This document shows positions 10,484 through 13,882 of a DNA stretch of 64,000 nucleotides, piece after piece. The DNA comes from Hippea alviniae EP5-r (lineage in GTDB: Bacteria; Campylobacterota_A; Desulfurellia; Desulfurellales; Hippeaceae). Made by a program: the position numbers and the translations under genes. Position 1 is the first letter of the stretch. Each line of letters starts with the position of its first letter. The stretch is from the NCBI RefSeq assembly GCF_000420385.1, contig NZ_ATUV01000001.1:372001-436000 (forward strand). Reading direction: 5' to 3'. The notes beneath the pieces are model-generated. The model made no database searches. It worked only from the letters and a program-made list of their open reading frames with translations, and was not told where the DNA came from.

Positions 10484-10495
10484 AAAATGGCTCCC
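10484..10495 (+). repeat. Direct repeat, distal copy (attL-like)
   Basis: AAAATGGCTCCC, identical to 13803-13814 where it forms the 3' end of tRNA-Asn (including CCA) plus four A residues. Probable distal attachment-site or target-duplication copy. Confidence 0.7.
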
Positions 10496-10652
10496 TTAAT
10501 AGACAGCTGTTTCAAACTCATTTAAAGTGTCCTTCCGCCTTGTCCTCACAAGGAAGAAAGCAGGAAAGATCAAACTCTCTCTTTTTTTCCTATTCTGGAT
10601 TGACAATGAAGCCACCCATTCCGTCCAGAAAGAAAGATTTTTGAAAATGGAT

Positions 10653-10682
10653 TTGACTTTTTGCTTTTCTTTGATATATATC
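10653..10682 (+). promoter_or_regulatory. Promoter of the HTH gene (inside left arm)
   Basis: TTGACT at 10653-10658 and an overlapping TATATA/TATATC -10 region at 10675-10682, spacer 16 to 18 bases. An inverted repeat ATCAT-TAT-ATGAT (10680-10692) overlaps the 3' edge of the -10 box. An identical copy in the right arm drives the methyltransferase operon. Confidence 0.65.
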
Positions 10683-10701
10683 ATTATATGATGTTAAACG
10701 A

Positions 10702-10716
10702 TGCCAAATTTTGGCA
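10702..10716. promoter_or_regulatory. 15-bp palindrome, candidate operator
   Basis: TGCCAAATTTTGGCA, a perfect palindrome about one central base, between the -10 region and the ribosome-binding site. An identical site is at 13588-13602. Its position over the early transcript and its presence before both transcription units suggest the binding site of the island's HTH protein (inference). Confidence 0.55.
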
Positions 10717-10737
10717 GGCTCAAAAGGAGTTAAACCT

Positions 10738-10944
10738 ATGATAGAAGGTTTTGGAGAAATAATGACCCTTGAGGAGACCGCAAAATATTTAAAAATAGGA
10801 AAATCTACTCTTTATAAAATGGCAAGGGAAGGAAAAATCCCCGCCGTGAAAATTGCTAATCAATGGAGATTTAGAAAAGAAGAGATTGATAAGTGGCTTC
10901 AGGAGATAAGAAATAAAGAAATTCTCTCCAATGAAGAAAAATAA
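10738..10944 (+). CDS. Small excisionase/MerR-type helix-turn-helix DNA-binding protein
   Basis: A 68-residue protein of the excisionase-like HTH family. Residues about 9-32 form the helix-turn-helix (LEETAKYLKIGKSTLYKMA). Residues about 33-57 give the wing and last helix, including NQWRFRKEEIDKWL. ATG at 10738 is chosen because AAAGGAG lies 8 bases upstream; an earlier in-frame TTG lacks a site. The first 40 codons lie in the inverted repeat and the remainder is unique. It converges on the endonuclease gene, 95 bases away. It likely regulates its own promoter and the identical promoter of the methyltransferase operon, replacing the usual Xre-type C protein. Excision function is also possible, but no integrase is present. 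Confidence 0.82.
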   Translation: MIEGFGEIMTLEETAKYLKIGKSTLYKMAREGKIPAVKIANQWRFRKEEIDKWLQEIRNKEILSNEEK

Positions 10945-11039
10945 AATTAGTTTTGTCCTCTTTCTTCCTTCTTTAAAAGCCGAAAGTTTGAGGGCTGGGA
11001 ACTTTTTGGTATTTATGAAGATGCGGGCTTCTCCGCCGC

Positions 11040-12008
11040 TTAAATTTTATTTTTTAATAGATCTTTAAAAATTTCTTTAAGTCCAGCTGTATTAACAAAG
11101 AGATTGTTAGGATTATCTTTTAAATATTTTTCAATATCTTCCTTTTGCCTGTTTACTTTTGTGTTGTTCTCGAGTGGAGTCCAAATGAAATTATTAAAAT
11201 AGACACCGTCCATAAATGAAAGATAATGAATAAATTTTGAATTTTCTGAATATCTTATAAACTCTATCGTCTCAACAATTTGCTTATCCTGAGCTCCTCC
11301 AGATTCTTTAATATGCTTTGCTTCTATTATGAAGAAATGATCACCTATTTTCAAAACAATGTCTGGTTCTTTCCCTTGATGATCCTTTCCAAATTGATAA
11401 ACAATATTGAATCTTTTACAAAATAGCTTAAAAAGTCTTTTATCCCCTTTATCAGGTGAAAAATATCCCCTATTGCAGGTTTCAACTTCTTTAATAGTTT
11501 TTAAATGTTCATCTTTCTTTAAACTAAGTATTTTGCTTGCCAAATCTAATACTTTTATTATTCCAGCTGTCCCCTTCTTTCTGGAAGCTCCACTATCATA
11601 TAAAGCTTGAACCGTAACATTTGAATAACCCAATTTATCATATAATTGTCTCCTGCGTGAGCAATACTTTTCTAACAATTCAGCCAAAATAAGTTTCTGG
11701 TTTGGTAATTTCTTAAATACAGAAAATGACATGTCTAAAGCTTTCCAGAATGCAATAAATTCTGTATATTGTATTTTATCAATTGATGTTATGATCTCAT
11801 AAATTTCATCAAGTATTTTTTCTGCGGCTTTTTTGTCTTTATCAAGCATTACACGGTAACTTATGATCAGTTCTCTTAATCTTTCTACTTTCCGAATCAA
11901 TTCTTTATCTTCAATAATTACTTCATCAAATATGTAATACTCGTCTGCTGCTGGCTCAGGATTTTTAAGAGATATTTGCCAATATTCTATATTTCTTTTT
12001 AACGCCAT
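11040..12008 (-). CDS. Type II restriction endonuclease, PD-(D/E)XK fold
   Basis: A 322-residue protein whose C-terminal part (about residues 215-240) shows the nuclease core. PDIVLKIGDHFFIIEAK gives the Asp and the E-x-K residues expected to bind Mg2+ and cut DNA. The N-terminal two-thirds is helical and charged and is not recognised; it may bind target DNA. The gene overlaps the end of the methyltransferase gene by 10 bases and has an AAAGGGG ribosome-binding site within that gene. Methylase is therefore translated first, as suits a restriction-modification pair. The recognition sequence cannot be read from the sequence alone. Confidence 0.82.
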   Translation of the reverse strand: MALKRNIEYWQISLKNPEPAADEYYIFDEVIIEDKELIRKVERLRELIISYRVMLDKDKKAAEKILDEIYEIITSIDKIQYTEFIAFWKALDMSFSVFKKLPNQKLILAELLEKYCSRRRQLYDKLGYSNVTVQALYDSGASRKKGTAGIIKVLDLASKILSLKKDEHLKTIKEVETCNRGYFSPDKGDKRLFKLFCKRFNIVYQFGKDHQGKEPDIVLKIGDHFFIIEAKHIKESGGAQDKQIVETIEFIRYSENSKFIHYLSFMDGVYFNNFIWTPLENNTKVNRQKEDIEKYLKDNPNNLFVNTAGLKEIFKDLLKNKI

Positions 12009-13429
12009 AGTGATAACCCCTTTAATTGATTAAAAGATTTAACAAAAGAAATTATACCCTTAACATCCTTTTTCTCAATTAAATCTTTAAATTCGTCTTG
12101 TTCATTCTCTTTTAGAGCCAAAATTGGGAAAGTTTCTATTAGTTCTTTCGTCTGTGTAAGTCCTAAATACTTTCTTGTGTATTCGCTATTTGAATATTTA
12201 TAAGTTGTCATGAATTCACTATCGGTTTTCTCTCTAAAATATTCCAAGACTAAGTTGAAATACTCTTTTAACAATACTTGATCATTTTTTGATATTTGAG
12301 GATTTAAAAATATCTGGATCGGGTGTGTTCTATATCTTGATTTTGAAACCAAAATCCCATCTACCCCAAAAGCTTCTTTGATTAAATATAATCCTACTCT
12401 TCCGTCAAAACTCCCTGTGTCAACAGTTCTAACAAAGAGGATATTTGACTTGATTTTCTCATAAAGATTGGTGTTAACATATATTACTTTTTTCTCATAC
12501 TCTTTTCCATTAAAAGCATTAGCATCTATAACCGCAATTTTGTTATTTCCTTTATTTTTCTCAACTTCTTCTATTGTTAAGTAATAAGAGACTTTTAATG
12601 GTTTAAGAGCTTTATAGTGTTTGACAAATCCTTCAAATTCATTTCCTGCTCTAAAATGATTCTTAGGATCAAGGATATAGACCTTTTTTTGAATTTCTTT
12701 GTTTATCTTCGTCCCTTCGAAAATTATCTTTTCTTTTTTGGGAAATTCTTTTCTTTCAAAAAAGCAAATGATAACATTAGTCCCTGTGAATTCAAAAATC
12801 TTTTTTTCAAAAATAAATGCTTTTTTAATGTTGTAATACTGAAGAAAATCATCTCTAATTTTATTTGATACTGAAAATCCGAAAAGAAAATTAGAGGGTA
12901 TAATATAAACCATCTTTTTGATGCCATTGCGAAGATCATTTATTGAAGCCAATTGATATAAATCCTGGTATCCTTCATTTGGTCCTTGAAAATACTCTAA
13001 ATGCTTTTGTGTCTCTTTATGTTTTACAATATAGCCTATATAAAGATAAGGTGGATTAGTGATATGATAGACCGGTAAATCACTATCCAAAATAAAAGTG
13101 GGGTAATTTTTAATAGTGTCTCTTTGGATAATATTTCTTTGGGCTATTTCTTTAGGAATTCCATATTTAAGAGCATTTAAGATTGACTTTTCTACTAATT
13201 CTTTTTGAATATCAAAAAGGAATATATGTTTTTTAAAAAATTCAATTCTCTTATCTTCATGCACTAACTCTAATATTGGTAAAATAAGATTACCTTCACC
13301 ACAAAAGAGATCCACCCATCGGTATTTGTAAATTTCTTTTTCTATCTCAGGTAAAATAAACTTTTTAAATATGCTAATGGAAGTTAAATGTTCTCCGTAT
13401 GTTCTTCGCTTGTTTTTTAAAGCTTCCAT
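11999..13429 (-). CDS. Type II N6-adenine DNA methyltransferase
   Basis: A 476-residue methyltransferase. Motif X-like YGEHLTSISIFKKFILPEI is near the N-terminus, motif I (SAM binding) is WVDLFCGEGN at about residues 38-47, and motif IV is TNPPYLY at about 129-135, the catalytic signature for adenine-N6 methylation. The order X-I-IV with a long C-terminal part, presumably target recognition, fits the gamma class. The gene protects host DNA from the adjacent endonuclease. Its ATG has only a weak ribosome-binding site and lies inside the end of a truncated HTH reading frame, so stop-restart coupling is likely. Confidence 0.9.
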   Translation of the reverse strand: MEALKNKRRTYGEHLTSISIFKKFILPEIEKEIYKYRWVDLFCGEGNLILPILELVHEDKRIEFFKKHIFLFDIQKELVEKSILNALKYGIPKEIAQRNIIQRDTIKNYPTFILDSDLPVYHITNPPYLYIGYIVKHKETQKHLEYFQGPNEGYQDLYQLASINDLRNGIKKMVYIIPSNFLFGFSVSNKIRDDFLQYYNIKKAFIFEKKIFEFTGTNVIICFFERKEFPKKEKIIFEGTKINKEIQKKVYILDPKNHFRAGNEFEGFVKHYKALKPLKVSYYLTIEEVEKNKGNNKIAVIDANAFNGKEYEKKVIYVNTNLYEKIKSNILFVRTVDTGSFDGRVGLYLIKEAFGVDGILVSKSRYRTHPIQIFLNPQISKNDQVLLKEYFNLVLEYFREKTDSEFMTTYKYSNSEYTRKYLGLTQTKELIETFPILALKENEQDEFKDLIEKKDVKGIISFVKSFNQLKGLSLWR

Positions 13430-13566
13430 AGTATCTTCTCTTTTATAGCAATTTTCACGGCGGGGATTTTTCCTTCCCTTGCCATTTTATAAAGAGTAGA
13501 TTTTCCTATTTTTAAATATTTTGCGGTCTCCTCAAGGGTCATTATTTCTCCAAAACCTTCTATCAT
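13417..13566 (-). pseudogene. Truncated copy of the HTH gene, leader frame overlapping the methyltransferase start
   Basis: The right inverted-repeat arm repeats the promoter, AAAGGAG site and first 40 codons of the HTH gene. At the arm's end the frame runs into unique sequence and adds nine residues (IKEKILWKL) before a stop, giving 49 residues. It keeps the helix-turn-helix but loses the wing and final helix. It overlaps the methyltransferase ATG by 13 bases. It could act as a translated leader that couples initiation of the methyltransferase, as a competing short DNA-binding protein, or simply be a remnant. The reading frame and signals are certain; function is not. Confidence 0.75.
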
Positions 13567-13587
13567 AGGTTTAACTCCTTTTGAGCC

Positions 13588-13602
13588 TGCCAAAATTTGG
13601 CA
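13588..13602. promoter_or_regulatory. 15-bp palindrome, right-arm copy
   Basis: Identical copy of the candidate operator at 10702-10716, here between the promoter and the leader frame of the methyltransferase operon. Confidence 0.55.
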
Positions 13603-13621
13603 TCGTTTAACATCATATAAT

Positions 13622-13651
13622 GATATATATCAAAGAAAAGCAAAAAGTCAA
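13622..13651 (-). promoter_or_regulatory. Promoter of the methyltransferase-endonuclease operon (right arm)
   Basis: Mirror copy of the promoter at 10653-10682: TTGACT at 13651-13646 and the TATATA/TATATC -10 region at 13629-13622. Nothing else resembling a promoter is seen directly before the methyltransferase. Confidence 0.65.
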
Positions 13652-13806
13652 ATCCATTTTCAAAAATCTTTCTTTCTGGACGGAATGGGTGGCTTCATTG
13701 TCAATCCAGAATAGGAAAAAAAGAGAGAGTTTGATCTTTCCTGCTTTCTTCCTTGTGAGGACAAGGCGGAAGGACACTTTAAATGAGTTTGAAACAGCCA
13801 TCAAAA

Positions 13807-13882
<76 letters not shown>

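Follow-up and report, generated by a model that had tools for sequence, protein, structure and literature searches.

A probable tRNA-Asn integrative element with its promoter-bearing end duplicated in inverted orientation around a restriction-modification pair in Hippea alviniae

Serine-integrase elements of the phiRv1 type insert site-specifically with a short core, have a recombinase gene that abuts the attachment (att) site, and encode a small excisionase-type protein. In phiRv1 that protein, the 73-aa Xis (Rv1584c), is the directionality factor of the serine integrase (PMC4111918). Restriction-modification (R-M) genes also travel in mobile units with inverted repeats at their ends, according to the account of Furuta, Abe and Kobayashi 2010 given where it is cited in PMC3874152, and they occur beside tRNA genes in tRNA-anchored defence islands such as the leuX hotspot (PMC12707154). 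In type II R-M systems governed by a C protein, a small helix-turn-helix (HTH) gene adjoins the methyltransferase (M) and endonuclease (R) genes; methylation-associated defence systems (MADS) likewise have an HTH protein, MAD1.

The locus described here, found in a window of 64,000 nucleotides from Hippea alviniae EP5-r, resembles each of these in part. It is like the phiRv1 type in having a recombinase gene that abuts att, a small excisionase-type protein, and site-specific insertion with a short core, but its target is the 3' end of tRNA-Asn, the recombinase has been lost in the window, R-M cargo is enclosed by inverted promoter ends, and related copies occur in several phyla. The R-M cargo, the end repeats and the position beside a tRNA gene recall mobile R-M units and defence islands; in contrast to both, the repeats are long, perfect and promoter-containing, and differing cargo families stand behind one promoter and leader ORF. 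As in C-protein systems, a small HTH gene adjoins M and R, yet it is of the HTH_17 rather than the Xre type, it is tied to a mobile platform, and no C-box has been shown. The HTH resembles MAD1 (73.6 bits), although under the 80-bit cut-off of that model, and the element lacks a MADS-like gene set; of the proteins of the window, only the HTH matched any mad model, so the locus is not assigned to MADS. A literature search returned nothing matching this element. It appears to be a known kind of element in a new variant, with the promoter end present twice and facing inward around an R-M pair. From sequence comparison we consider it very probable that a 15-bp palindrome, singled out in a preliminary description of this DNA, lies in the end module of an integrative element at tRNA-Asn, that this module is duplicated in inverted orientation around M and R, and that the HTH is its putative directionality factor. 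The features are as follows.

10484..10495, minus strand: attR-side copy of the tRNA-Asn 3' end, GGGAGCCATTTT, a 12-bp direct repeat of 13803-13814
10506..10858, plus strand: left arm, with promoter, ribosome-binding site (RBS) and first 40 HTH codons
10653..10680, plus strand: promoter from the alignment of 23 arms, -35 TTGACT (10653-10658), 16 bp, -10 TATATA (10675-10680)
10680..10692, plus strand: second dyad, ATCAT-TAT-ATGAT, of a chance-level kind
10690..10709, plus strand: tandem decamers GATGTTAAAC + GATGCCAAAT, alternative candidate operator; consensus GATGTTAAAC + GATGATAAAC
10702..10716, plus strand: reported 15-bp palindrome TGCCAAATTTTGGCA, exact match
10738..10944, plus strand: 68-aa HTH_17/excisionase-family protein (PF12728, 70 bits; TIGR01764, 61 bits)
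10966..11040, plus strand: large serine recombinase relic, residues 42-66, SRKFEGWELFGIYEDAGFSA (tblastn against the L083 recombinase, 88% over 25 aa)
11040..12008, minus strand: restriction endonuclease candidate (R), EAK motif (PF06300, Tsp45I, 19.5 bits, cut-off 25)
11999..13429, minus strand: N6-adenine methyltransferase (M), NPPY motif (PF02384, 34 bits)
13417..13566, minus strand: truncated second HTH copy (HTH'), 49 aa, first 40 codons identical, its 3' end overlapping the M start by 13 bases
13446..13798, minus strand: right arm, the inverted second copy
13588..13602, minus strand: second copy of the palindrome (reverse complement), exact match
13803..13815, minus strand: attL core GGGGAGCCATTTT, running into the tRNA-Asn 3' end
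13807..13882, minus strand: tRNA-Asn(GTT), the integration target (ARAGORN)

The order in the window is tRNA-Asn–attL–arm–HTH'(truncated)–M–R–recombinase fragment–HTH–arm–attR. The two arms form a perfect inverted repeat of 353 bp, 100% identical, with a spacing of 2587 bp. The left arm continues into the full HTH gene; M and R, which lie between the arms, are read from the right one, and being co-directional and overlapping are probably made as one transcript. Because the inverted second arm encloses M and R, one arm would drive the intact 68-aa HTH and the other HTH'-M-R. A third arm-like match (L003), of 30 bp inside a sulphate-activation (CysC-type) gene, was treated as chance.

The preliminary description proposed that identical promoters serve the two transcription units, each with the palindrome between its -10 box and its RBS and a second inverted repeat at its -10 region. 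These placements all hold: the promoters are both within the 353-bp repeat, the palindrome occupies the described position at each, and the second dyad, whose other copy is at 13612-13624, touches the -10 box just downstream. Across the 1.75-Mb genome, TGCCAAATTTTGGCA matches exactly at those two sites only, with no one-mismatch site; two-mismatch sites number six, against four matches in total for a control pattern. Perfect 7+1+7 dyads are uncommon, with eight in the 64-kb window, two of them the reported copies, and an expectation of about 0.0075 per 60-bp leader, while dyads of the second kind are common (89 in the window). The two palindrome copies are nevertheless not independent, since both fall at matching positions of one perfect inverted repeat, and their identity therefore needs no regulatory explanation. 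A larger repeat should be looked for before one palindrome in two promoters is taken as evidence of regulation.

Comparison with homologous arms (23 aligned, with base counts over 21) identifies the -35 and -10 boxes, the RBS and the tandem decamer as the conserved parts, and gives TGATAAACTYTGGCA as the leader consensus in the 21. Other arms keep the right half of the palindrome, but the two Cs that make it symmetrical are present in just 1/21 and 3/21. The symmetry is private to the Hippea alviniae genome, as is the second dyad, and this speaks against the palindrome as a conserved operator. The tandem decamer, with 8-9 of 10 positions matching in most intact copies, is rare in shuffled sequence; the window's own copy is weaker than most of these. 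Direct repeats are common binding sites of excisionase-type proteins, and for this reason the decamers are the preferred candidate operator.

Within the element a single HTH gene is intact; it encodes a protein of the PF12728/TIGR01764 type that also matches PHROG excisionase families and has no Xre-type domain above the Pfam cut-off, in agreement with the earlier statement that the sole regulator is of excisionase type. A PDB sequence search found no relative. The same statement made this protein a controller of the R-M pair; as a dedicated controller it would bind the palindrome in both promoters and time M and R, as would a C protein of another fold. The identical promoters, the restriction of the exact dyad to two sites in the genome, and MAD1 as the best NCBIfam match all speak for such a role, as does the intact state of the HTH, for which six of eight comparisons give a dN/dS of about 0.15-0.27, indicating purifying selection; the other two values are 0.80 for L084 and 0.39 for G008. 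We judge it unlikely all the same. The dyad symmetry is private, and the same arm and HTH start stand in other hosts before unrelated M genes, a tyrosine recombinase and defence-like genes, so that the HTH belongs to the mobile platform rather than to this R-M system. The closest M-R pair in the genus, at L035 (M 68% and R 52% identical), has neither HTH nor arm beside it. Moreover, with M and R on a probable single transcript, control at the promoter alone would not separate one from the other. The L035 pair (L035:7641-10054) sits among cobalamin-biosynthesis-like genes, with no adjoining tRNA.

Judged by its domain content, the HTH is not a C protein. It is most likely the excisionase or directionality factor of the element, a role made plausible by the small Xis of the phiRv1 serine integrase; the relic of a large serine recombinase directly behind its gene places this small HTH_17/Xis-family protein in an integrase's element. 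The purifying selection seen in most comparisons speaks for this reading as well, and the L084 value against it. It is perhaps also an autoregulator acting through the leader of the arm promoter, which would co-regulate M and R, the promoter copy being identical, and its control of the R-M pair would then be a by-product of the shared promoter at most.

The limits of the element are set by its target. The direct repeat AAAATGGCTCCC, found at 10484-10495 and 13803-13814, consists of the last bases of tRNA-Asn plus four beyond, so that the element is bounded by copies of a tRNA 3' end, as expected of a tRNA-targeted integrative element. The att core is GGGGAGCCAT, at which the element inserts into the tRNA-Asn 3' end, with attL read as tRNA-GGGGAGCCATTTTGATGGC; the conserved arm comprises att-flanking DNA, promoter, RBS and the start of the HTH_17 gene. 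On the attR side, GGGAGCCATTTT lies next to a recombinase-end-like flank, GTCTATTA. An empty site is seen in genome G003, where a terminator hairpin comes after tRNA-Asn with no arm between them; beyond the distal junction of the G008 island, GGGGAGCCATTTA precedes a hairpin similar to the G003 terminator, and the recurrence of this hairpin defines the insertion site. The arm lies directly 3' of tRNA-Asn in 12 loci: five in genomes of the genus (the window, G001, G005, G007 and G008) and seven in other taxa (L082, L083, L087, L095, L097, L138 and L139). In G002, tRNA-Asn is split near the anticodon by another element (L040:2150-2215), which has an integrase reading frame of its own close by.

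Of the integrase expected in an integrative element, the window retains a relic of 25 codons, and a Pfam search of its genome gave no match to the large serine recombinase domain (PF07508); the window copy therefore looks non-autonomous. Relatives do carry a serine recombinase adjoining att. Only in L083 is it nearly complete, with PF00239 (Resolvase), PF07508 (Recombinase) and PF13408 (zinc-ribbon) domains, broken by one frameshift and one further in-frame stop, and the 3' end of its gene lies at GGGGAGCCAT, running into AATTAGGGGAGCCAT. The attR sites of L083 and L087 join the recombinase 3' end, GTCAATTA/GTCAATAA, to GGGGAGCCAT; in L087, 5.3 kb separates the tRNA-side attL from the attR that adjoins the end of the recombinase gene. 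L083 and L079 also have attP-like junctions, in which the recombinase gene end is joined via GGGGAGCCAT to an arm. Since these junctions, together with attL and attR of L087, place the recombinase end at att, the ancestral order was probably tRNA-Asn, attL, arm, HTH, recombinase, attR, and the element would originally have been moved by a large serine recombinase for which the HTH most likely served as directionality factor. The adjacency of HTH and recombinase is one that we infer, because HTH-linked recombinase fragments lack residues 1-41 or so; no intact HTH-recombinase operon was found at any locus examined. The absence of about 41 N-terminal residues, seen in the window at 10945-10969, is common to these fragments and probably reflects one ancestral deletion. 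A conserved 65-bp segment behind the HTH, considered as an attC site or terminator, proved to be serine recombinase coding sequence. A PIN-like gene adjoins the recombinase in L083:3800-5103 and L087:8871-9901 and may belong to the core of the element.

Relatives of the element are widely scattered. Homologues that share 84-92% identity with most of the HTH occur in metagenome-assembled genomes (MAGs) titled Actinomycetota, Deferribacteres, Deltaproteobacteria, Omnitrophota and Desulfofervidaceae; Leptospiraceae and Hydrothermus match its first 38-39 residues at 95-97%. For the arm DNA, the best relatives from other phyla reach about 80-92% identity; the window arm matches an Omnitrophota copy at 92% over 262 bp and an Actinomycetota copy at 86% over 540 bp, against 75-79% for the arm of its congener G008. 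Horizontal transfer is indicated by this closer match to other phyla than to a congener. L079, a 4.5-kb MAG contig binned as Actinomycetota, carries a copy of the window R-M element itself whose DNA is 91% identical along 2.8 kb (M 93% and R 87% identical). Misbinning is possible for so short a contig, but those that bear L082, L087 and L095 measure 337-998 kb, and the one with L139 measures 2.54 Mb. Among 395 genomes drawn from one of the other phyla with relatives, nine have the arm. Related arms thus stand at tRNA-Asn genes in congeners, Omnitrophota, Desulfofervidaceae, Leptospiraceae and others. A phage or plasmid origin found no support: the arm-HTH segment matched none of 50,697 phage or 72,556 plasmid records, and the HTH had no match in IMG/VR.

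Cargo lies between inverted arms in the window, G008, L082, L083 and L139, which raises the question of a DNA-inversion switch that would flip the M-R/HTH block for phase variation. The 353-bp identical arms would permit it, and in G008 the block between the arms is oriented oppositely relative to tRNA-Asn. Homologous recombination could plausibly invert the block, but this would leave expression unchanged, as both arms supply the same promoter and start codons and M-R and HTH would be expressed alike either way; with the second arm of G008 decayed to about 68% identity as well, we consider a switch highly improbable.

What lies behind the arm differs by host and consists mostly of unrelated R-M or other defence-like genes. 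Within the genus there are other R-M pairs in G008, G001 and G005, remnants of Xer/IntI-like integrases in G005 and G007, and in G007 a gene matching the candidate phage-defence ATPase model PDC-S06. Elsewhere, N6_N4 methylases with Tsp45I and DUF4209 genes follow a truncated HTH start in L083, L087 has an Eco57I-family methylase pair, and L088, L095 and L082 have further methylase pairs. The inverted arms of L139 (4444-11968) enclose a six-gene, ATPase-rich operon with HerA/mad8-like, DrmC-like and ABC ATPase genes, possibly an undescribed defence system. In place of a presumed one-off R-M controller there is thus a traceable vehicle, in which one promoter stands before defence cargo that is mostly unrelated from host to host. 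It makes directly testable both how R-M systems move among distantly related thermophiles and how a ready-made promoter captures defence genes.

At many loci the cargo is joined close to HTH codon 39 on one side and recombinase residue 65 on the other, although L082, L095 and L097 have earlier HTH-side junctions. A tentative reading is that this tRNA-Asn platform, spread across thermophile phyla, swaps whole defence cassettes in the manner of an integron, without attC and under its own promoter and Xis-type regulator. Equally tentatively, the exchange may proceed at fixed junctions, HTH codon ~39-43 on one side and recombinase residue ~65 on the other, with inverted promoter-plus-leader modules enclosing the cargo.

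Some islands suggest a different enzyme. L138 (318-1160, minus strand) has a single 280-aa frame (PF12728+PF13495+PF00589) in which a HARP-like segment links the HTH start to an Xer/IntI-like tyrosine recombinase, and L096:2980-4200 and L089:2105-3106 contain such fusions, again with the HARP-like segment, broken by frameshifts. These count against a serine recombinase as mover, since the tyrosine recombinase could be the integrase instead. On that view the arm would supply promoter and N-terminus to an integron-type tyrosine recombinase fused to the HTH, and the R-M pair would be cargo of an integron-like platform. Several integrases or remnants are followed by a conserved site that ends in GTTAGGC, which also favours this view. 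We find this quite improbable, somewhat more so than a dedicated R-M controller, given that the att junctions of L083 and L087 adjoin a serine recombinase gene and that the integrase fragments score far under the IntI cut-off. Beside the window element there is neither an integrase nor an attI-like site, an attI-like match being absent from the whole window, and the locus is not classed as an integron. The preferred reading remains that of an element once moved by a large serine recombinase. Behind tyrosine integrases or their remnants there is a conserved double-palindrome site, often ending GGATATGAACGAGTTAGGC (GTTRRRY-like) and attI-like in look, after which cargo follows; it occurs at L036:5940-6030, L038:5560-5660 and L098:6410-6505, and in L092, L096 and L099.
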